From Candidatus Tepidiaquacellales bacterium OLB4/UTCHB1 (GTDB lineage Bacteria > Bacteroidota > Ignavibacteria > Tepidaquicellales > Tepidaquicellaceae), in NCBI GenBank assembly GCA_002050165.1, contig MWSW01000004.1:1-64000 (forward strand): 64,000 bases of DNA. Direction: 5' to 3'. The translations under genes were made by a program, and so were the position numbers. Of this stretch, positions 8,631 to 21,693 are shown in pieces (the stretch's first letter is position 1; each line of letters opens with the position of its first letter). The notes under the pieces are model-generated. The model worked only from the letters and a program-made list of their open reading frames with translations. It was not told the DNA's origin and ran no database searches.

Positions 8631-10871
8631 TTGAAAAAAAAGCGCCGCTTCAATCACGTTTCAAAAACAGATATTAATAAAATCTCAACTTTCGAGCATC
8701 AATATCCTATTGATATACTCGGTGCAAAGGTTGACAAGAAAATCCATTCCGTTCGCATAATTACATTCCTGCCCAAAGCGATCAATGCATATATTAAAAC
8801 TAAACACGTATCAATTCAGCTTGACCGCATCAGCACAGGAAATATTTACTCTGCAGTAATTGAAAATACTGATATTGTGCCTGAATATACAATACATTTT
8901 GAAGATGAAGACGGGAATGAGTTTGCATTTCATGATCCGTATAATTTCCCGATTGAATTTTCAGATTACGACGAACACCTTTTCGCAGAAGGGAATCACA
9001 ACAGAATTTACGAAAAGCTCGGTGCACACAAAAGAAAAATTCTCGGTAAACAAGGTGTGATGTTCACTCTTTGGGCCCCAAACGCGAAAGCAGTTGCATT
9101 AGCAGGTGAATTCAATTCATGGACTCCGGGAATGTTTCCAATGCAAAAATTAACCGCTAATGGAATCTGGGGACTTTTCATCCCGGGGATTAATGATGGG
9201 GTACAATACAAATTCGCCGTCAAAGATAATCACGGTAACATTGTAATGAAAACCGATCCATTTGCGTTCGAATCGGAACTTAGACCTTCCAACGCATCCA
9301 TAATTTCCTCGCTGAACGGATTTAAATGGACTGATAAGAAATGGATTAACAAAAGGAAGAAAACCATTAAGTATAAAACTCCAATTTCCATTTACGAGCT
9401 TCACCTCGGAACTTGGAAAAAGGATTTCGGTGCAAACGAATGGGGTTTTAAAAATTACCGCGACCTCGCTCATGAAATTGTTGAATACGTAAACTTAATG
9501 GGTTATACACATATTGAATTGCTCCCGGTAATGGAACATCCTCTCGATAATTCATGGGGCTACCAGGTTGTAAATTATTACGCACCGTCAAGCAGATATG
9601 GAACTCCGCAGGATTTCATGTACTTTGTCAATCATTGTCATTTAAACGGGATTGGAGTTATTCTCGATTGGGTTCCGGGACATTTTCCAACCGATGCGCA
9701 TGGATTGGCGAAATTTGATGGTACAGCGCAATTTGAATATTCAAATCCGCTCAAATCATATCACAAAGATTGGGGTACGCTTATCTTTGATTACGGAAAG
9801 AATGAAGTTAGAAATTTCCTGATTGCCAATGCGCTGTTCTGGATTGATAAATACCATATTGATGGGCTACGAGTTGATGCTGTTGCTTCAATGTTATATC
9901 TCGATTACTCAAAAAATGACGGTGAGTGGGAACCAAATATTTATGGCGGAAATGAAAATCTCGAAGCAATTGAATTCCTTAAACGCCTTAATGATACAGT
10001 ACATCGGGAATTTCCCGGAATACTTACCATTGCTGAGGAATCAACTTCCTGGCATGGGATCACTAAACCATCTTATACCGGTGGACTCGGGTTCGATATG
10101 AAATGGAATATGGGCTGGATGCATGATACATTGTTTTACTTTTCTCAGGATCCGGTTTATAGAAAGTTTCATCACAATAAAATCACCTTCTCGTTGTGGT
10201 ATTCATTTAATGAAGATTACCTGTTACCATTATCACACGATGAGGTTGTTCACGGAAAGAAATCTCTTATTGATAAAATGTCCGGTGACCTGTGGCAGCG
10301 CTTCGCTAATCTGAAACTACTTTACGGTATGATGTTCGGACATCCCGGCAAGAAGCTGAACTTCATGACAAATGATATTGCGCAATACCTCGAATGGAAT
10401 TCAAACGGAGAGCTAAATTGGGATGTACTTGAAATTGAACACAATAAAAAGTTTAACCTTTTTTTCAGGGACATCGCTCACCTGTACCGAAAGCAACCGG
10501 CGTTATTTGAAGTTGATTTTAAAAGTAACGGTTTCAGATGGCTTGACTTTAAAGATGCCGATAATAGCGTCCTTGCCTTTGCGAGGTTTTCCGCCGATAA
10601 TAAGGAAACAATAATTTTTACATTTAATATGACACCGGTAATTCGCACCAATTATGTTTTCGGTGTTCCGCAAAAAGGTATATATCGTGAGATACTAAAC
10701 AGCGACGCGGTAGAATACGGTGGAAGCGGAGTCGGAAATCTCGGCGAAATAATAGCCGAAGAAATTCCCCATCAGGATTTTCTTTACTCAATTAAAGTTA
10801 CTTTACCTCCTCTGGCTGTGAACGTATTTAAACTTGATAATCCCAATGACCCGGTTGAGTTGTCTTCATAA
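8631..10871 (+). CDS. glgB: 1,4-alpha-glucan branching enzyme GlgB
   Basis: 746 residues, normal for the family. It cuts alpha-1,4 chains and re-attaches them by alpha-1,6 bonds during glycogen synthesis. Order: an N-terminal N1-type module (about 20-115), a CBM48 module with FTLWAPNAKAVALAGEFNSW (about 145-235), the GH13 barrel (about 255-640) and a C-terminal beta domain. Catalytic residues are visible: nucleophile Asp416 in DGLRVDA, acid/base Glu469 in TIAEEST, and Asp537 in LSHDEVVHGKKS. The only plausible start is TTG, since no in-frame ATG precedes the conserved N-terminal module. It heads a co-directional glucan cluster with a GH57 enzyme, malQ and a phosphotransferase-like fusion. Confidence 0.95.
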   Translation: MKKKRRFNHVSKTDINKISTFEHQYPIDILGAKVDKKIHSVRIITFLPKAINAYIKTKHVSIQLDRISTGNIYSAVIENTDIVPEYTIHFEDEDGNEFAFHDPYNFPIEFSDYDEHLFAEGNHNRIYEKLGAHKRKILGKQGVMFTLWAPNAKAVALAGEFNSWTPGMFPMQKLTANGIWGLFIPGINDGVQYKFAVKDNHGNIVMKTDPFAFESELRPSNASIISSLNGFKWTDKKWINKRKKTIKYKTPISIYELHLGTWKKDFGANEWGFKNYRDLAHEIVEYVNLMGYTHIELLPVMEHPLDNSWGYQVVNYYAPSSRYGTPQDFMYFVNHCHLNGIGVILDWVPGHFPTDAHGLAKFDGTAQFEYSNPLKSYHKDWGTLIFDYGKNEVRNFLIANALFWIDKYHIDGLRVDAVASMLYLDYSKNDGEWEPNIYGGNENLEAIEFLKRLNDTVHREFPGILTIAEESTSWHGITKPSYTGGLGFDMKWNMGWMHDTLFYFSQDPVYRKFHHNKITFSLWYSFNEDYLLPLSHDEVVHGKKSLIDKMSGDLWQRFANLKLLYGMMFGHPGKKLNFMTNDIAQYLEWNSNGELNWDVLEIEHNKKFNLFFRDIAHLYRKQPALFEVDFKSNGFRWLDFKDADNSVLAFARFSADNKETIIFTFNMTPVIRTNYVFGVPQKGIYREILNSDAVEYGGSGVGNLGEIIAEEIPHQDFLYSIKVTLPPLAVNVFKLDNPNDPVELSS

Positions 10872-10976: not shown

Positions 10977-12500
10977 TTGAATAAAAAGCATTTGATAATC
11001 CACGGACATTTTTACCAGCCACCACGGGAAAATCCCTGGACTGACGAGATTGACCCGGAGTTTTCAGCGGCTCCTTTTCACGACTGGAATGAACGTATAC
11101 TTCAGGAGTGTTATAAACCAAATACTGAAGCTGTTATCGTCAACTCTCACGGGGACATTATCCGGCGCGTGAACAATTACGAATATCTGAGTTTTAATTT
11201 CGGGCCGACTCTGTTTTCATGGCTCCGCAAGAAACACCGCCACACATACGAAAAAATTATTGATGCTGATAAAAAAAGCATAATTAAAAACAACGGACAA
11301 GGGAATGCGATTGCACAAGTTTACAATCATATCATTATGCCTCTCGCATCTGAGCAGGATAAAATTACTCAGGTAAAGTGGGGGGTGAAAGATTTTGAAT
11401 TTCATTTTGCACGCAAACCAGCCGGAATGTGGCTCGCTGAAACTGCATGTAATAACGAAACTCTCAAAGTTCTTGCCGATGAAGGAATAAAATTTACGAT
11501 CCTAGACCCATCACAAGCGTACGCTATCAGAAAAATCGGATCCGAACAATGGGTAAGTAAACCTGAACTGGAACTTGATACTTCACGACCGTACAGGTTT
11601 TTCACTAACGAAAAATTTATTGATGTATTCTTTTATAATGGAAAACTTGCACGCGAGATTGCTTTTGACGACCTCATTTTTCATTCTGAAAAATTAATGG
11701 ACAGGATTGTAAATTTAAGTTACGGGTTCAGAATGATTTCAGCTGCAACCGACGGAGAGACTTTCGGGCACCACAAACATTTCGCAGACAGATCTATTGC
11801 ATATTTATTTTCTGAACTTACCTCAACGAACGGGTTTTCGGTAACAAATTATTCCAATTTTCTGAAATTAAATCCACCCGATTACGAAGTGATTCTTGAT
11901 AACGGACCACTAGGTGAAGGAAATTCCTGGAGCTGCGCACATGGCGTTGGCAGGTGGAGCGACGATTGCGGTTGCCATACCGGTGGTGAAAATGGCTGGA
12001 ACCAAAAATGGCGGAAAACCCTGAGATTTGCGCTCAATGACCTTGCAGTGAAACTTGACTATGTATTTATTAAAGCCACCAAACACCTCTTAAAAGATCA
12101 CCGGCAAGCGAGAAATGAATACATTGATATTATGCTTAACCCGGATTCTGAAACGATTGAAAAATTTTTTTACTTTAATTCAGTGAAATATTTGGATCAA
12201 TCGGAGGTGAATCTCTGCCTGAAACTTCTCGAAATGCAAAAGTACCGTATGTTTATGTTTACAAGTTGCGGCTGGTTTTTTTCCGATATTACAAATATTG
12301 AAACTATTCAAATACTAAAATATGCCGCAAAGGCAGTTGAACTAACCGCTGATGCTACCGGGAATGATTTTGAAAATGTGTTTTTGAAAAATCTGATGGA
12401 AGTAAAAGGTAACACAAAATCACTGCCAACTGCTGCGGATGTTTACCGGAAAAAAATTAAGCCCCTGAGTAAGTCAAAGCATAGAATAAGAATAATGTAA
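10977..12500 (+). CDS. GH57 family glucanotransferase/amylase-like enzyme
   Basis: 507 residues, TTG start immediately before the conserved GH57 opening HGHFYQPPRENPW. GH57 landmarks are present: the nucleophile candidate Glu155 in GMWLAETAC and the acid/base candidate Asp259 in AATDGETFGHH. A glycine/cysteine-rich segment (SWSCAHGVGRWSDDCGCHTG, about 321-340) is typical of the subgroup that carries a DUF3536-type C-terminal region; from memory, those proteins are often around 800 residues, so this copy appears short at its C-terminus. The family acts on alpha-1,4-glucans (transfer, branching or hydrolysis). Position between glgB and malQ (11 bp before malQ) supports a role in glycogen or maltodextrin processing. 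The exact reaction cannot be read from sequence. Confidence 0.85.
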   Translation: MNKKHLIIHGHFYQPPRENPWTDEIDPEFSAAPFHDWNERILQECYKPNTEAVIVNSHGDIIRRVNNYEYLSFNFGPTLFSWLRKKHRHTYEKIIDADKKSIIKNNGQGNAIAQVYNHIIMPLASEQDKITQVKWGVKDFEFHFARKPAGMWLAETACNNETLKVLADEGIKFTILDPSQAYAIRKIGSEQWVSKPELELDTSRPYRFFTNEKFIDVFFYNGKLAREIAFDDLIFHSEKLMDRIVNLSYGFRMISAATDGETFGHHKHFADRSIAYLFSELTSTNGFSVTNYSNFLKLNPPDYEVILDNGPLGEGNSWSCAHGVGRWSDDCGCHTGGENGWNQKWRKTLRFALNDLAVKLDYVFIKATKHLLKDHRQARNEYIDIMLNPDSETIEKFFYFNSVKYLDQSEVNLCLKLLEMQKYRMFMFTSCGWFFSDITNIETIQILKYAAKAVELTADATGNDFENVFLKNLMEVKGNTKSLPTAADVYRKKIKPLSKSKHRIRIM

Positions 12501-12511
12501 ATGATATCAAA

Positions 12512-14341
12512 TTGAGCACAGAATATTTTTTAAACTCCCGGACCGGTTCTCAATGGAAATTAATCGACGTAAAGAAGCGGGCAGGGCTTGTTGTACCTCT
12601 CTTTTCAGTTTGGTCAGGAAATAAAACTATAGGTGAGTTTACCGATATCAATCTATTAACTGACTGGAGCCGTTTGTGCGGTTTGTCAATTATTCAACTT
12701 TTGCCTTTGAACGATATGGGAAGCGACAATTCACCATATAATTCGGTTAGTTCATTCGCTCTTGACCCGGTGTATATTAATTTAAGCAAACTGAAAGAAG
12801 TTTCAGCAGGTAAAACCAGAAAAATTATTTCATCCATAAAATTTGAAAACCTTAATACACAACGCGTAAATTACAGGATAAAAAGAAAAAAACTTAATAC
12901 ACTTCGAAAAATATTTACCGAAGCATTTCTGGATTCTGAAGAATATTCGGATTTTAAACATCAACAATCACACTGGCTTGACAGCTACGCGCTTTTTAAG
13001 TTAATTAAATCACATTACAACGGAAAACATTGGGAAACGTGGGACAGGCGTTTTCGAAATATTGATTCACTGACTGTAAAAGATATTCTAAAGCACAAGC
13101 GGGAAGAACTGAATTTCATTGCTTGGGTGCAATGGCAGGCGTACAATCAACTCAAGGAAGCAAAATTGTACGCTGAAAAAAATTCGGTTCTGCTAATGGG
13201 TGATCTGCCCTATCTTGTATCTTCTGATAGTGCTGATGTCTGGCAGAATCCTGATTATTTTAAACTGGATAAAGTTGCCGGCGCTCCACCTGATATGTAT
13301 ATGCAAAAAGGACAGAGATGGGGAATGAGTCCTTATAACTGGATGAATATTGCAATCGGAGGTTTCACATATATTAGAGACAGATTAAAATATGCTGAAA
13401 ATTTCTATCACTCCTATAGAATTGATCACTTTATTGGTCTCCTACGCATCTGGACTATATCAAAAAATATAAGTGAATCTTTTGGTGGAGAGGTCGGACA
13501 ATTTGATCCGGCGGATGAAAATATCTGGAAACAACACGGCAGAGAAATTGTAAACGAATTTATATCGGCCTCTTCAATGCTCCCGGTTGCAGAAGATCTT
13601 GGAACTGTTCCAAATGATTCTTTTGAGCTACTACATGAATTAGGAATTCCAGGGATGGAAGTTCTCCGTTGGAAACGCAATTGGAGCGATGGCGGAAGTT
13701 TTGTTAACCCGGAATTTTTCAGGGAAAATTCTATCTCGGTTTTGTCAACTCACGATTCGTCTACTATATCCGCATGGTGGAAATTTGAGGCGGGTAAAAC
13801 TGACCTGAGTTCATTTTACAAAAACCTCGAACAGTATGGGATCTCACGCGAAGAGATTCAAATCTTAAGAAATAAACTTTTCAAGAAATACATAAATCCT
13901 GCCGGAAGAGTTGAATGGCGGGCTATTGTTAGCCCCGAGTCTATCAATGAATTTACATCCAACTTCAGCGATAATGTGAAATATTATTTGCATGAGCTAT
14001 ACAAATCAACCATTCGCGAACGAACCGATTTTGCATCTTTAATTGGATATAATTGCATGCTATCAGATGAAATCAATGTAAACTTTATCCGCAATTGTCT
14101 TCAAACTGCACTTGGTGCATCATCAATTTTTAGTATCCAGTTGCTGATGGAGTGGCTATATCTTGACGGAGATATTTTGAAACGTTTCAGTAAATGGCGC
14201 GACAGGATAAACTTTCCCGGAACTGTTAGCAATCTTAACTGGACATGGCGATTACCTATAAGTCTCGAAGACATGATGAAGTCTGAAGTAATTAAAATTA
14301 TCAAAACTCTGGTTGAACAATCTGGCAGAGGAGATGGTTAA
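12512..14341 (+). CDS. malQ: 4-alpha-glucanotransferase (amylomaltase) MalQ
   Basis: 609 residues, GH77 family. It transfers maltooligosyl units between alpha-1,4-glucans, recycling short chains from glycogen breakdown. Catalytic positions: nucleophile Asp305 in YRIDHFIGL, acid/base Glu361 in VAEDLGTVP, and Asp415 in LSTHDSST. The SPYNSVSSFALDP motif near residue 73 matches the usual SPY...FA(G/L)NP substrate-binding region. Starts with TTG 11 bp after the GH57 gene. The C-terminal end overlaps the next gene's ATG by 8 bp, implying translational coupling. Confidence 0.93.
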   Translation: MSTEYFLNSRTGSQWKLIDVKKRAGLVVPLFSVWSGNKTIGEFTDINLLTDWSRLCGLSIIQLLPLNDMGSDNSPYNSVSSFALDPVYINLSKLKEVSAGKTRKIISSIKFENLNTQRVNYRIKRKKLNTLRKIFTEAFLDSEEYSDFKHQQSHWLDSYALFKLIKSHYNGKHWETWDRRFRNIDSLTVKDILKHKREELNFIAWVQWQAYNQLKEAKLYAEKNSVLLMGDLPYLVSSDSADVWQNPDYFKLDKVAGAPPDMYMQKGQRWGMSPYNWMNIAIGGFTYIRDRLKYAENFYHSYRIDHFIGLLRIWTISKNISESFGGEVGQFDPADENIWKQHGREIVNEFISASSMLPVAEDLGTVPNDSFELLHELGIPGMEVLRWKRNWSDGGSFVNPEFFRENSISVLSTHDSSTISAWWKFEAGKTDLSSFYKNLEQYGISREEIQILRNKLFKKYINPAGRVEWRAIVSPESINEFTSNFSDNVKYYLHELYKSTIRERTDFASLIGYNCMLSDEINVNFIRNCLQTALGASSIFSIQLLMEWLYLDGDILKRFSKWRDRINFPGTVSNLNWTWRLPISLEDMMKSEVIKIIKTLVEQSGRGDG

Positions 14342-16799
14342 ACCCACCTTAAATCTACTCGGAGGCTTAGGTAGTAGTGCGGAATATTGGAAATTTGTAT
14401 TACCACATTTCAGTAAATATACACCAACGCCGATTGAACTCCCCGGATTCGGCAATAATAAATCTGATTCTTTTCGCAACAACGACGAACTCGCCCGTTC
14501 ACTGATAAACCTTACGAAACCGGGTGAAGACATTCTCGCATGCGGCTTTGGTGCGCTTGTCGCTCTCCGTGTTGCAACTATTGATCCATACCATTTTAGA
14601 AATTTTATAATCCTTGCACCAATCGGTGCATTCATTGGGAAAAAGCAGCCTAAAATTTTTCCGCAGTACCTTGATGGAATACCCTTTTTAAAATTTTTAA
14701 TTTCTGTAAATCCTTCCCTCTTAAAAAAGTACTTAACTATTGCTCCACGTGATAATGAAATTTTTGAAATCATCGCACGCGGAATTAAAAATTACAGCGC
14801 ATTGAAATCTATTTTGAACCTGATTTCTCCGGTTGATGCACTGGATTTATTTGACTACATAGACAATAATGTCAGAATATTATGGGGGGCAAAAAACAAT
14901 GTAATAGATATCTCACATATCGCCGCATGGGATAGTATTCTCAAACGCGCTAATCTGTCAATCACGATAAAAAATGATTGGGGACACTTTCCGTATTTTG
15001 ATGATCCTCCCGGTTTCGTTAAAACCGTAGAAGATGAATCCGAATCCTTTAAATCGCACACAAAAGCAGGAAGATTAAAACTTGCAAAGATTGCGGGACT
15101 TAATGTTCCGGAATTTTGTGTAGTCGAAAAATATATTGACGAATTTAAGCCTGATAACACGAAATCCTTTGTGATTAGATCCGGATTTTCAAATGAAGAC
15201 AAAGCTGATTCATCTGAACCGGGTTTACATAAATCATTCCTTAGAATCCGTCCGGAAGATGTTGAGCAAAAGGTAAATGAACTTTTCAGCAATGGAGCGG
15301 ACGAGGTAATAATTCAAAAATATATAGAACCGCTTGTCTCAGGTGTAGCTTTTGTAAGAAATATTTCAACCGAAATTGAATGGGTAAACGGCCACCTTGA
15401 AGGACTGACTTCAGGGAAAGTAACACCTCAGAGTGCAGTTATATCAAAAATGCAAAACGGGTGGGAAGTCGGCTGGAATAAAAGCATGGATGAATCTCCG
15501 TTTATTGTTATGATTTCATACCTGAACGAGTTCCTCTTAAATTGTATTTCAAAGTTTCACTACGAACACTGTAATATTGAGTGGGCATGGGATGGATTGG
15601 AATTCTATCTACTCCAGCTCAGACCTGTAACCAATTTCGGTTGGCGAAGGCTTATTTCTTCCGCAAATCTGGATGAAATACTCCCGAAACAAGTTAGTAA
15701 TTTGATGAACGAAGCTCAGATAAAAGCTGCGAAAAGTATCGGCAGACTCTACGCTCTCTGGGATTACAGAACAATTGAAAACAACGAACCGTTCACCGTA
15801 GAATTTAACCACGCACAGTATATAAACTGTGACCTTTTCCTTTCAAGTTTCAAAAATTGGGGATTACCGGCAAAACTGTTCTTTAGAGAAATTGGAGGAT
15901 ACTCCCCTGAGCCACGATTTAATTTTTTCCGGTTTATTCTGACCATACCGAAGTTTATTAAAATGCTCATTCTTGCGAGACAAAAAGTAAAAATGTCGTA
16001 TTTAAAACTTCTCGATTTTGAAGTTGAGTTAAATCATCTATTGAAATTAAATTCACCTCACCGCGAATATTTAATCAGGCACTGGTTTATTCGATATTAC
16101 CTGTTTATTACAAGAACAAACATAGTTTTGAAGGCTTGTCTTTCGAGCGCAGGCGGGAACTTCATGGGTAATCCGAAAACTGTTTACTCTGAAATGTTAC
16201 AAACAAAATTTCCACATCGTGTAAAATTTGAAAGCGATCCGGCATCCGAGCGGAAGGTTGAAAAATTTTACCATGTCAGCAGTTTTCCAAAATGGAATTT
16301 ATTCCTCAGAATATGGAGTGCGATAGGATTACCGGGTATGCGGGGAAGATATATTGAAATTAGGGAATGGTACAGAGATAACAATATGCGACTCATACAA
16401 CGGTTACATTTTGCATTGAAAGGAACGGAAGCTTTCGGATTATCAGAGGCAGTGCGATTGAAGTCGGGAACATTCTGGCAAAATAGTGGAGTTGATGAAA
16501 GTGCGGATTTCAACGATTCTATACCATCAATAATTTATCCCGGTGATGTTATCGGAATTATCGGAAAGGATATTCTGATTGTTGACGCACTTGAACCGGG
16601 ACACTTCGAAGAATATAAAAATGCTAAAGCTGTTATTGCACGAAATGGTGGTATGCTCTCTCACGGTGCAATCCTATTAAGGGAAATTAAGAAACCATCC
16701 GCTATAATCAGTAATTTCCCGGATAACCTTTCAGGGAAACTCGTGAATTTCAAGAACGGGGTTATAACACTGATGGACAACCTCAATTCTAAAATCTGA
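14334..16799 (+). CDS. Alpha/beta-hydrolase-like domain fused to PEP-synthase/RPH-like phosphotransferase
   Basis: 821 residues from the ATG at 14334, which follows a GAGGAG site and overlaps the malQ stop; a TTG at 14313 is an alternative. Residues 1-230 form an alpha/beta-hydrolase-like domain with LLGGLGSSAEYW and a retained His218 (DWGHFPYF), but the nucleophile elbow reads ACGFGAL, so Ser is replaced by Gly71, and the usual acid position is Asn. From about 240 there is an ATP-binding domain of the PPDK/PEP-synthase type: FVIRSGFSNEDKADSSEPGL, EPLVSGVAFVRN, GKVTP, IEWAWDGLEFYLLQLRPVT. The C-terminal swivelling domain has ARNGGMLSHGAILLREI with the phospho-histidine. The order (ATP-grasp, middle, His) matches rifampin phosphotransferase and PEP synthase. 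Substrate unknown; the glycogen neighbours suggest a glucan or sugar, which is inference. Confidence 0.8.
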   Translation: MVKPTLNLLGGLGSSAEYWKFVLPHFSKYTPTPIELPGFGNNKSDSFRNNDELARSLINLTKPGEDILACGFGALVALRVATIDPYHFRNFIILAPIGAFIGKKQPKIFPQYLDGIPFLKFLISVNPSLLKKYLTIAPRDNEIFEIIARGIKNYSALKSILNLISPVDALDLFDYIDNNVRILWGAKNNVIDISHIAAWDSILKRANLSITIKNDWGHFPYFDDPPGFVKTVEDESESFKSHTKAGRLKLAKIAGLNVPEFCVVEKYIDEFKPDNTKSFVIRSGFSNEDKADSSEPGLHKSFLRIRPEDVEQKVNELFSNGADEVIIQKYIEPLVSGVAFVRNISTEIEWVNGHLEGLTSGKVTPQSAVISKMQNGWEVGWNKSMDESPFIVMISYLNEFLLNCISKFHYEHCNIEWAWDGLEFYLLQLRPVTNFGWRRLISSANLDEILPKQVSNLMNEAQIKAAKSIGRLYALWDYRTIENNEPFTVEFNHAQYINCDLFLSSFKNWGLPAKLFFREIGGYSPEPRFNFFRFILTIPKFIKMLILARQKVKMSYLKLLDFEVELNHLLKLNSPHREYLIRHWFIRYYLFITRTNIVLKACLSSAGGNFMGNPKTVYSEMLQTKFPHRVKFESDPASERKVEKFYHVSSFPKWNLFLRIWSAIGLPGMRGRYIEIREWYRDNNMRLIQRLHFALKGTEAFGLSEAVRLKSGTFWQNSGVDESADFNDSIPSIIYPGDVIGIIGKDILIVDALEPGHFEEYKNAKAVIARNGGMLSHGAILLREIKKPSAIISNFPDNLSGKLVNFKNGVITLMDNLNSKI

Positions 16800-17343: not shown

Positions 17344-20300
17344 ATGATAGACAAAGTAATTGCATTCAGTATAAAAAATAAATTTGTTATTGCGCTTTTG
17401 ACTCTCGCGTTAATTCTATGGGGATTATGGAGCGCCAACAAATTACAAATTGACGCCGTCCCGGATATAACCAACAACCAGGTTCAAATTATAACAGTTT
17501 GCCCAACGCTTGCAACTCAGGAAGTTGAACAATTGGTAACATATCCGATTGAACAAAGTATGGCAAATCTTCCTGATTTGGTGGAGTTACGGAGCATTTC
17601 CCGGTTTGGACTTTCAGTAATAACAGTAGTGTTCGATGATAATGTTGACATTTACTTCGCCCGTCAATTGATAAACGAAAAGCTAAAAGATGCAGGGGAT
17701 AAAATTCCAAAAGGTGTAGGTACACCGGAATTAGCACCTGTAAGTACCGGTCTGGGAGAAATATATCAATATATCATCCACCCTGTCAGCGGCAGTGAAG
17801 ATAAATATTCTGCAATGGAGTTACGTACTATGCAGGATTGGATCGTCGCACGTCAACTTTACGGTACACCTGGAGTTGCAGAGGTAAACAGTTTCGGCGG
17901 GCAACTCAAACAATATGAAGTTTCGATAAATCCCGACAGACTTGTTGCAATGGGAGTTTCTGTTCCTGAAATATTTACGGCATTAGAGAGGAATAATGAG
18001 AATACCGGCAGCGCATATATTGACAAAAAACCAAGTGCATATTTCATTCGCGGTGTCGGATTAATAGGTTCATTTGATGATATCAAAAATATCGTAATTA
18101 AAGCGAACCCGAATGGAATCCCGATCTTAATTAAAGATGTTGCTGAAGTTCGTTTCGGCAGCGCTGTTCGATACGGCGCAATGACTTACAACGGTGAAGT
18201 GGATGCAGTCGGTGGAGTTGTAATGATGCGTAAAGGTGCAAATAGTTCCGATGTGGTCAACAGGATAAAAGAAAAAATGCAAACCATTCAAAAGTCACTT
18301 CCTCCGGATGTTAAAATTGAACCTTATCTTGACAGAACGGATTTGATAAACCGCGCAATTTTTACCGTGCAAAAAAATCTCATCGAAGGCGCATTGATAG
18401 TAATTTTTGTGTTGGTCTTATTTCTTGGAAATCTACGTGCTGGATTGATAGTTTCTTCCGCTATTCCACTTTCTATGTTATTTGCTTTAGGAATGATGAA
18501 CTTATTCGGAGTTAGCGCAAACCTAATGAGCCTCGGGGCAATTGACTTTGGTCTGATTGTTGATGGAGCTGTGATTATTGTTGAAGCTACAATGCATCAC
18601 CTTGGTTTGCGAAAGTCAATCGGGAAATTATCACAATCGGAAATGGATAAAGAGGTTTATAAATCATCCTCAAAAATACGCAGTAATGCTGCATTTGGTG
18701 AAGTTATCATTTTGATTGTTTACATCCCGATACTAACACTTATCGGGATCGAAGGGAAAATGTTCCGACCTATGGCACAAACTGTGGTTTTTGCAATTTC
18801 CGGCGCGTTGATATTATCACTTACATATATTCCTATGATGTGCGCTCTGTTCCTGCCAAAACAAATTTCCCAAAAGGAAACGTTCAGTGATAAAATAATG
18901 AAGATTTTCCAGCGCATTTATTCACCACTCCTCGAAAAAGCAATTAAATATAAATTAAGCATCGTCAGTGTAACCGTTACAATTTTTGCAGGAACTGTGA
19001 TGTTGTTTTCAAAAATGGGAGGAGAATTTATTCCAACTTTACAAGAAGGTGATTTCGCAATTCATTGTATCTTACCTCAGGGGACGTCGTTATCACAAAG
19101 TCTGGAGACGTCTATGCAGGTCTCCCGAATGTTGGGTGAATTTGACGAGGTGAAAATGGTAATCGGCAAAACCGGAACCGCCGAAGTACCAACCGATCCG
19201 ATGCCTCCGGAAGCAACGGATTTAATGGTAATTCTTAAACAACCCGATGAATGGAAACGTGATATCAGTTACGATGAACTTGCAGATGAAATGATGCAGA
19301 AGTTGTCAACTGTGCCGGGAGTTTTCTTTGAAAAAAGTCAACCAATTCAAATGCGATTTAATGAGTTGATGACCGGGATCAAACAGGATGTCGCAGTTAA
19401 AATTATAGGAGAAAACATGGACACACTTTTAAATTACGCCAATAAAATAAAATCGGTTGTCCAAAATGTGGAAGGTACAACTGAACCAAGCGTTGAACGG
19501 ATAACCGGTTTACCTCAAATTGTAATTAAATACAACCGTTCACAGATTGCAAATTATGGTTTAAATATTAAGGATATTAACCATATCATAAGCACTGCGT
19601 TCGCTGGTGGAACAGCAGGAGTTGTTTTTGAAAATGAACGTAAATTTGATTTGGTAGTGCGATTAGACAGCACTCATAGAAACAATATTGAAGACGTAAG
19701 CCAGCTATATATTCCAACAAACAATGGAACACAAATTCCATTATCGCAAGTTGCCGAAATCAAAATGGAATTAGGACCGGCACAGATAAGCCGTGAAGAT
19801 GCGAAACGCAGAATTGTAGTTGGTTTCAACGTTAAGAACAGGGATGTGGAAAGTGTTGTTGATGATATACGAAATAATCTGGATAAAGAAATAAAACTTC
19901 CGGAAGGGTATTACTACACTTTTGGAGGAACATTTGAGAATTTACAAGCTGCATCTAAAAGACTGATGATTGCTTTGCCGGTCGCATTGGGGCTTATATT
20001 CACGCTTCTTTATTTTACATTTGGTTCATTCAAACAGGCATTACTCATTTACACTGCAATTCCAATGAGCGCAATTGGAGGTGTTTTTGCTTTGGTCATT
20101 CGTGATATGCCATTTAGTATATCGGCAGGAATCGGTTTTATTGCATTATTTGGCGTAGCTGTATTAAATGGAATCGTACTTATCGGGACTTTCAATCAGT
20201 TGGAAAAAGACGGAGTCAGTGATATTACTAAACGCATTATAGAAGGGACAAAAACCCGTCTCCGGCCGGTATTAATGACTGCTGCTGTTGCATCGCTTGG

Positions 20301-21693
20301 ATTTCTTCCTATGGCGATTTCAACAAGTCCGGGAGCAGAAGTCCAGAAACCGCTTGCTACTGTTGTAATAGGCGGCTTAATCACTGCAACTTTCCTCACA
20401 CTAATTGTTTTACCTTTATTGTACATGATTTTTACTAAAAATAGAAAAGTTAAAGTTTCGCCATTGGTAGTATTATGCTTTATAATTTTCACGGTCGGGG
20501 GAGTAAATGCCCAATCAATGAAAATTATTAATCTCGATGAAGCCATCAAAGTTGCATTGGAAAATAACTTGAAACTTCAATCGAAACAATTGGACTTGCA
20601 ATCATACCAAAGTATGCGCGGATCTTCGTTTGAGTTACCTAAAACAAACTTTAATATTCAATACGGACAATACAGCAGTATCAATAATGATCTCGGTTTT
20701 CAAATCAGTCAGACTATTCCGTTTCCAACTTACTATTTTGAAAAGTCAAAATTACTGGAAGCAGAAATGCAAAACATCGAATTGCAACGAAAAGCATTAA
20801 TGAACGTTATTACTTCACAGGTCAAATCACAGTTTTACGAACTACAATATTTATCAGCCGTAAAAGATCGTTTGAAATATCTGGAGGTTTTATACATTGA
20901 TTTTGTAAATGCAGCCGGATTGCGTTATAAAACCGGTGAAACGAATTTATTGGAGAAAACAACAGCGGAAACCAAATATGGTGAGATTCAGCTTTTACTT
21001 AAACAAAATGAGTCAGATTATTTAATGACATACAATAAACTGAAAACATTGATGAACACTGGTGAAGATTTTGTGATTGAAAGAATTGTCGAATTTCAGC
21101 CTCTTGCCTTAAACATTTCGTTTGATACATCGCTTGTTTCAAATAATCCTGCGCTGGAATCAATGTACAAGGAAGTATTGATAGCCAGACAGAACAAAGA
21201 AATTGAAATTGCATCATTACTCCCTGAGCTTAATATTGGATATTTCAATCAATCGCTTATCGGAACACAGTCAGTTAACGGTAATGAGGTACATTTCGGA
21301 ATTGGTGATAGGTTTCATGGAGTTAACTTAGGTATAAATGTACCGCTTACTTTTTTCAATTCATCTTCAAAAATCCAATCTCTCGACTTTAAACAACAAT
21401 CTCTGCTGAGAGAAGCAGATAATGTTAGAATCCAATTGCAGAATCAATTGCGTAATGCATACGTGCAATACGAACAGATTTTATCGCAATACAAATATTA
21501 TAGTTCAACTGCTCTTCTAAATTCTGAAGTAATAATCAACACTGCAAAGGTAAGTTTTCAAAGTGGTGAAATAGACTATATAGAATTTTTGCAGGCACTT
21601 GAAACAGTAACTGATGTACATTTAGCTTACCTGAACTGTATAAATCAACTTAATCAATCGGTTATCAACATTACCTCTTTAATTAATAAATAA
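17344..21693 (+). CDS. CzcA/CusA-type heavy-metal RND efflux pump fused to a TolC-like domain
   Basis: 1449 residues. Residues 1-1040 are a complete heavy-metal-efflux RND permease with a first helix at about 13-30, two large periplasmic loops and the central helix motif AIDFGLIVDGAVIIVEA carrying Asp401, Asp407 and Glu414. Those residues match the proton-relay set of the CzcA (Co/Zn/Cd) subgroup rather than the Cu/Ag-type CusA. A transmembrane/signal-like segment (about 1040-1058, LVVLCFIIFTVGGVNAQS) leads into an outer-membrane-factor (TolC) domain (about 1060-1449) rich in long helices. Such RND-TolC fusions are known in Bacteroidota. With the adaptor 9 bp downstream this makes a full tripartite pump in two genes. 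Confidence 0.93.
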   Translation: MIDKVIAFSIKNKFVIALLTLALILWGLWSANKLQIDAVPDITNNQVQIITVCPTLATQEVEQLVTYPIEQSMANLPDLVELRSISRFGLSVITVVFDDNVDIYFARQLINEKLKDAGDKIPKGVGTPELAPVSTGLGEIYQYIIHPVSGSEDKYSAMELRTMQDWIVARQLYGTPGVAEVNSFGGQLKQYEVSINPDRLVAMGVSVPEIFTALERNNENTGSAYIDKKPSAYFIRGVGLIGSFDDIKNIVIKANPNGIPILIKDVAEVRFGSAVRYGAMTYNGEVDAVGGVVMMRKGANSSDVVNRIKEKMQTIQKSLPPDVKIEPYLDRTDLINRAIFTVQKNLIEGALIVIFVLVLFLGNLRAGLIVSSAIPLSMLFALGMMNLFGVSANLMSLGAIDFGLIVDGAVIIVEATMHHLGLRKSIGKLSQSEMDKEVYKSSSKIRSNAAFGEVIILIVYIPILTLIGIEGKMFRPMAQTVVFAISGALILSLTYIPMMCALFLPKQISQKETFSDKIMKIFQRIYSPLLEKAIKYKLSIVSVTVTIFAGTVMLFSKMGGEFIPTLQEGDFAIHCILPQGTSLSQSLETSMQVSRMLGEFDEVKMVIGKTGTAEVPTDPMPPEATDLMVILKQPDEWKRDISYDELADEMMQKLSTVPGVFFEKSQPIQMRFNELMTGIKQDVAVKIIGENMDTLLNYANKIKSVVQNVEGTTEPSVERITGLPQIVIKYNRSQIANYGLNIKDINHIISTAFAGGTAGVVFENERKFDLVVRLDSTHRNNIEDVSQLYIPTNNGTQIPLSQVAEIKMELGPAQISREDAKRRIVVGFNVKNRDVESVVDDIRNNLDKEIKLPEGYYYTFGGTFENLQAASKRLMIALPVALGLIFTLLYFTFGSFKQALLIYTAIPMSAIGGVFALVIRDMPFSISAGIGFIALFGVAVLNGIVLIGTFNQLEKDGVSDITKRIIEGTKTRLRPVLMTAAVASLGFLPMAISTSPGAEVQKPLATVVIGGLITATFLTLIVLPLLYMIFTKNRKVKVSPLVVLCFIIFTVGGVNAQSMKIINLDEAIKVALENNLKLQSKQLDLQSYQSMRGSSFELPKTNFNIQYGQYSSINNDLGFQISQTIPFPTYYFEKSKLLEAEMQNIELQRKALMNVITSQVKSQFYELQYLSAVKDRLKYLEVLYIDFVNAAGLRYKTGETNLLEKTTAETKYGEIQLLLKQNESDYLMTYNKLKTLMNTGEDFVIERIVEFQPLALNISFDTSLVSNNPALESMYKEVLIARQNKEIEIASLLPELNIGYFNQSLIGTQSVNGNEVHFGIGDRFHGVNLGINVPLTFFNSSSKIQSLDFKQQSLLREADNVRIQLQNQLRNAYVQYEQILSQYKYYSSTALLNSEVIINTAKVSFQSGEIDYIEFLQALETVTDVHLAYLNCINQLNQSVINITSLINK

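Follow-up and report, generated by a model that had tools for sequence, protein, structure and literature searches.

The 64,000-nucleotide stretch analysed here, hereafter the window, comprises positions 1 to 64,000 of contig MWSW01000004.1 from Candidatus Tepidiaquacellales bacterium OLB4/UTCHB1. A gene at 14334–16799 of its forward strand encodes an 821-residue protein in which, according to open reading frame (ORF) and domain searches, an N-terminal pseudo-hydrolase domain is fused to a dikinase resembling rifampin phosphotransferase (RPH). This fusion gene is present in one copy in the 2.42-Mb genome and follows a glycogen-type cluster on the same strand, in the order glgB–GH57–malQ–fusion. 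The first gene is the branching enzyme glgB (8631–10871, from domain and family models), followed by a GH57/DUF3536 protein (10977–12500, Pfam) and malQ (12512–14341, GH77 in Pfam), the 3′ end of which overlaps the ATG of the fusion gene by 8 nucleotides. The Pfam models that exceed their cut-off in the window protein are PEP-utilizers (residues 745–789) and PPDK_N; Abhydrolase_6 (residues 9–229) falls slightly short of it. The AlphaFold2 model of the whole protein has a mean predicted local distance difference test (pLDDT) score of 70. The ORF, coordinates and domains given in a preliminary description of this gene were confirmed. Since the search in other genomes proposed there turned up over 80 full-length homologues of the fusion (35–47% identity), the fused architecture is not a matter of chance. 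Further downstream, at 17344–21693, a 1449-residue ORF reads by its sequence as an apparent fusion of a CusA-type RND efflux protein with a TolC-like outer membrane component.

The hydrolase domain, residues 1–236 (14334–15041), was delimited with the AlphaFold2 model and VIA-align. The predicted structure returned a complete, canonical alpha/beta-hydrolase fold, which aligns with the esterase 1zoi with a VIA Z score of 23.4 (231 residues, root-mean-square deviation 2.5), with D14/KAI2 at a Z score of about 22 and with BioH at 21.7. The catalytic positions were compared in an alignment of 83 fusion proteins, consisting of the window protein, one protein of its own family, two encoded on Burkholderia plasmid records and 79 obtained in a genome scan. 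Phmmer paired Gly71 (14544–14546) with the nucleophile Ser of BioH (GWSLGG), and because this alignment and the small-residue pattern Ser-x-Gly-Gly-x-x-Ala both fit, Gly71 was taken as the nucleophile position, which is Ser in active members of the fold. All 83 fusion proteins and all five homologues encoded without a fused kinase have Gly in column 71; the Ser, Cys or Asp that an active alpha/beta hydrolase requires at the nucleophile elbow was thus found in none of them. Residue 73 was considered as an alternative, with G71-x-73 read as GxSxG; this column contains Asn in 70, Ser in 11 and Gly in 2 of the 83 proteins, and position 71 is also preferred on account of the BioH alignment, the pattern of small residues that follows the elbow and the GTGIGG motif of the unfused homologues. 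Therefore, no conserved nucleophile is present whether position 71 or 73 is taken, and judged by its sequence the domain is not a serine hydrolase. Across 10 sequences of the domain, three of them unfused, not a single Ser, Cys, Thr or Asp position is invariant, which gives no sign of the alternative nucleophile that the preliminary description named as grounds for rejecting its proposal.

The rest of the catalytic triad is better preserved. His218 (14985–14987) is invariant in all 83 fusion proteins and in the unfused homologues, so that the retention of this residue described earlier holds for all the proteins aligned. The acid was described as lost too; this applies to the window copy, which has Asn188 (14895–14897), but the change is private to it, since the other 82 fusion proteins carry Asp and the unfused ones Glu. 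The domain is nevertheless maintained by selection. Among at most 25 pairs of Pseudomonadota fusion proteins with 80–95% identity, the median ratio of nonsynonymous to synonymous substitution rates (dN/dS) was lowest in the His domain (0.071) and similar in the middle domain (0.101), the hydrolase domain (0.104) and ATP-grasp (0.111). Constraint on the dead domain in Pseudomonadota is therefore as strong as that on ATP-grasp, and the domain is not a relic. A conserved module with a dN/dS near 0.10 probably acts as the binding or regulatory part that the preliminary description envisaged.

The kinase appears intact by the same kind of comparison. The ATP-grasp domain occupies residues 237–435 (15042–15638), as indicated by PPDK_N, a structural match and conservation in 82–83 of the 83 proteins: K244, R282, E288, D289, E416 and R430 are invariant, while Q428 is present in 82. 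It shows the Lys, the Arg and the terminal Glu...QxRP arrangement of the PEP-utilizing/RPH-type superfamily and matches the ATP domain of RPH-Lm (5hv6) with a VIA Z score of 15.8. The C-terminal swivelling phospho-His domain (residues 734–821, 16533–16796) contains the GGxxSH signature and scores above cut-off for PF00391, and its predicted phosphate-carrying residue, His777 in GGxxSHG (16662–16664), is conserved in 83/83. The ATP-site arginine and the phospho-His, both reported in the preliminary description, are hence invariant in the 83 aligned proteins. Between these two domains lies a putative substrate-binding domain (residues 436–733, 15639–16532), delimited by alignment with the unfused kinase and by its RExxR/K motif. 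Its motifs HRxxxExDPxxxR (628–640) and RExxR (677–681) both correspond to RPH motifs, and the RExxR of the fused as well as the unfused kinase aligns with REYPK of RPH-Lm. In RPH, the apex subdomain covers the same region, and the second transfer depends critically on its Glu/Arg residues (PMC4844700). Foldseek searches with the full model ranked RPH-Lm first among solved structures over the whole chain (E 8e-12), as did those with a model of the kinase part alone (E 4e-13).

The fusion occurs in two distant phyla. The same-family relative encodes a full-length protein with 47% identity to the window protein, the Burkholderia plasmid records contain full-length fusions at 37% identity, and 80 genome contigs, mostly from Pseudomonas but also from Burkholderia, Rhodoferax, Chitinimonas and Chitinolyticbacter, encode full-length fusions at 35–39%. 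Among 397 other Pseudomonadota genomes sampled, none yielded a relative at E 1e-15, so that within this phylum the family is rare outside these genera. Matches on Leisingera and Phaeobacter plasmids were set aside, because these longer 'PEP/pyruvate-binding' proteins align chiefly over the ATP-grasp domain and are not the fusion. A phage origin was likewise rejected, with no PHROGs match and no relative on viral contigs, as was a defence system, since neither the window protein nor the one Pseudomonas homologue compared matched a PADLOC model at E 0.01. The database records examined label the protein solely as 'PEP-utilizing enzyme'. No curated family covers the fusion, the named models scoring far below their cut-offs, and literature searches found no paper describing a pseudo-hydrolase joined to an RPH-type kinase.

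A profile search also detected the two halves as separate genes in five genomes of another family of the window's phylum. Hydrolase and kinase genes are adjacent in four of them, where a SelL-related redoxin gene precedes the pair, and lie on different contigs in the fifth; these halves are thus linked apart from glycogen genes. The unfused hydrolase carries the motifs GTGIGG, WGEKE and HFP, with Gly in place of Ser, and the unfused kinase is 26–27% identical to the kinase part of the fusion and has the same signature motifs. Since shared features such as RLxPxLM in the hydrolase domain go beyond the generic fold, the partnership of hydrolase and kinase is probably old and independent of the fusion event. 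Other hydrolase matches in the phylum (for example at loci L109, L110 and L112) have kept the Ser (HSFG, HSMG) and have no adjoining kinase, which makes them suitable as controls.

In many Pseudomonas genomes, the fusion gene is accompanied by a recurrent small set of upstream genes. A membrane-type protein of about 160 residues without Pfam match is present in 69 of 82 fusion loci, and a TIGR01777 short-chain dehydrogenase/reductase (SDR) with an N-terminal membrane region in 50. One of these two is the nearest upstream ORF in 66/82 loci, usually 9 nucleotides away or overlapping. While the outer neighbours vary among Pseudomonas groups, the set of membrane protein, SDR and fusion stays together; L011:7068-8991 and similar Pseudomonas loci exemplify it. 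In one locus (L014) the SDR and the small membrane domain form a single protein, and in Chitinimonas (L070:4666-8995 and L087) the fusion is the last gene of a cluster that also encodes a DUF4166 protein and two SDRs, one DoxX-like and one of the TIGR01777 type. A TIGR01777 SDR was found in all seven genomes searched, including that of the window, where it does not lie beside the fusion; this SDR is so widespread that its presence alone says little.

Combined, these results point to an RPH-type, ATP-dependent dikinase of a small molecule other than glycogen, in which a non-hydrolysing N-terminal domain derived from a hydrolase would serve in binding or regulation; from sequence and model comparison we give this reading a probability of roughly 65%. 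ATP would be held by the ATP-grasp domain through K244, R282, E416, Q428 and R430, and His777 would accept the beta-phosphate. The swivel domain would then carry the phosphate from the ATP site to the middle domain, where R677, E678 and R681 together with the HRxxxExD motif may assist its transfer to the substrate, AMP and inorganic phosphate being released. The pseudo-hydrolase, which keeps the Gly-loop and His(-Asp) and has Gly for Ser, may bind the substrate, its carrier or a regulatory ligand without catalysis. The most likely substrate is a small metabolite, perhaps a hydrophobic one, on which the protein would act together with a membrane partner. Substrate domains evolve rapidly in this superfamily, whose members use a variety of small molecules as substrates (PMC4844700; HpeHI, PMC12167813).

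Several points weigh against this reading. The middle domain is weakly modelled, with pLDDT values of 30–70 in several stretches, and hence the substrate pocket is not defined. The hydrophobic nature of the metabolite is suggested by the membrane partner and the SDR, and for the fusion family we infer it from this gene context; the Burkholderia copies stand alone, without membrane partners, and none of these partners lies near the fusion in the window. Some members of the superfamily, namely PigC and RedH, are ligases, so the product could be of another kind. We likewise infer phosphotransfer, swivelling, the substrate class and the role of the dead domain from sequence and model. A more specific version, in which the pseudo-hydrolase with its D14/KAI2/BioH-like fold gates or presents a hydrophobic metabolite or lipid to the swivelling kinase, in concert with the membrane protein and often an SDR, in an unnamed family that exists as fusion and as gene pair, is correspondingly tentative, and we lean somewhat against it.

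Among the alternatives, the hydrolase domain could still be an enzyme that uses its His and Asp or Glu as an acid/base dyad without a nucleophile, as a lyase, hydratase or isomerase, the product of which would be phosphorylated or activated by the kinase. Such His-Asp chemistry is possible, because both residues were kept, Asn in the window copy excepted, despite the constant replacement of Ser by Gly, and the purifying selection on the domain equals that on ATP-grasp. However, the window copy itself lacks the acid, none of the Ser, Cys, Thr or Asp residues is common to all the fused and unfused domains compared, and His and Asp may have been kept for structural reasons; we therefore regard this alternative as unlikely. 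A PigC/RedH-like ligase, whose phospho-His would make an acyl-phosphate or similar species for condensation with a second substrate on the pseudo-hydrolase, is less likely still. The unfused kinase does score the prodigiosin ligase PigC (138 bits) and RedH above RPH (105 bits), and acyl compounds are substrates of hydrolase-fold proteins such as BioH, but these scores are far under the equivalog cut-offs (1300 bits) and fusion members match PigC and RedH at only about 14–23 bits.

The preliminary description had suggested that the protein could phosphorylate a glucan, sugar or metabolite, its dead domain being a binding or regulatory part, had pointed to glucan water dikinase for the same ATP/His chemistry on starch, and had named linkage to glycogen clusters in other genomes as a check. 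In its glucan form the proposal is that of a bacterial glycogen or maltodextrin dikinase whose dead domain binds glucan or regulates. Apart from the chemistry class, which is the same, this form draws on the 8-nucleotide overlap with malQ and on the other intact copy in the family, which also overlaps malQ behind GH57. However, tblastn with the window proteins found no glgB, GH57 or malQ homologue in the 82 fusion loci or in six loci of the unfused system, mostly searched up to 9–12 kb on each side, and the linkage is therefore not borne out. Within the window's family, malQ occurs in 27 of 29 genomes, of which only two carry an intact fusion and 25 do not. Two of these 25, from related species, contain shortened ORFs behind malQ (L003:1417-2286 on the reverse strand, and L004). 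They retain parts of the ATP-grasp and middle domains only, without the hydrolase domain, the catalytic Lys/Arg of ATP-grasp or the His domain. With 42% mutual identity, a dN of 0.53 and a dS of 1.39 (NG86), and hence a dN/dS of about 0.38, they may still be under constraint, although the L004 sequence could be truncated where its contig stops. The four carriers group in a malQ tree with support 81/77 (midpoint root, with a long window branch), consistent with a single placement behind malQ followed by decay. Because one placement would account for the carriers, the glycogen link is a single local arrangement and not independent functional evidence. The branch length of the window malQ is 1.29, against a median end branch of 0.23 in its family relatives. 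Pfam matched only PEP-utilizers, PPDK_N and Abhydrolase models in the window protein and no starch-binding domain (carbohydrate-binding module, CBM), and by fold the hydrolase domain is closest to esterases, D14/KAI2 and BioH. Glycogen is thus an unlikely substrate, the fusion behind malQ is probably only co-transcribed, and a glycogen or maltodextrin dikinase is the least probable of the explanations considered.

Because Burkholderia and many Pseudomonas associated with plants and soil carry the fusion, its function is testable in tractable laboratory strains. The family is a clear instance of an enzyme fold conserved after loss of its nucleophile and coupled to a phosphotransfer machine, and it could reveal a new phosphorylated metabolite and the use of pseudo-hydrolases as substrate or regulatory modules. 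If the pseudo-hydrolase does gate the substrate, the kinase would have recruited a dead enzyme as a receptor.

In comparison with known systems, glucan water dikinase transfers the beta-phosphate of ATP to His and then to the substrate, as proposed for the fusion, and its phospho-His domain is N-terminal to the nucleotide-binding domain. In contrast, the His domain of the fusion is C-terminal to ATP-grasp, and its order of ATP-grasp, substrate-binding domain and His domain is that of RPH; a starch-binding CBM was not found either. The TIM barrel that binds PEP or pyruvate at the C-terminus of PEP synthase and PPDK has no Pfam match in the fusion, which ends after the His domain. RPH-Lm (PDB 5hv1-3, 5fbs-u) shares this domain order, the Lys, Arg and Glu/Gln/Arg ATP residues, the RExxK/R motif and the phospho-His, but identity in structural alignments is only about 15–20%, RPH has no N-terminal hydrolase domain, and the middle domain of the fusion, at about 300 residues, is shorter than the RIF-binding domain of RPH-Lm. 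The NCBIfam RPH model NF041857 (equivalog cut-off 999 bits) is absent from the models listed for the window protein and gives 20.9 bits for a Burkholderia homologue. BioH and D14/KAI2 resemble the fused domain in fold, the Gly-rich loop after strand 1 and the triad His, but have the nucleophile Ser where the fusion has Gly. Rv2047c/PRK05865, in which an epimerase-type SDR is fused to a PEP-utilizing swivel domain, joins in one protein what many Pseudomonas operons pair as separate genes, and no hydrolase domain is described for it; Rv2047c has a mycobactin-poisoning genetic phenotype, belongs to the pks12 operon and was linked by its authors to a lipid-like product (PMC7058343). The two-component aromatic dikinase HpeHI applies RPH-type ATP-grasp and swivel chemistry to a small molecule, and the ATP-grasp domain of the window protein matches HpeI (PDB 9goj) with a Z score of 12.4. 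HpeHI is split elsewhere, with ATP-grasp apart from the rest, and no hydrolase partner is described in its abstract (PMC12167813). The unfused pair is similar in Gly for Ser, RLxPxLM and the kinase signature motifs, and differs in being two genes behind a SelL-related redoxin. The chemistry is already known, and what appears to be new, judging from the papers searched, is the architecture of a pseudo-hydrolase joined to an RPH-type kinase.

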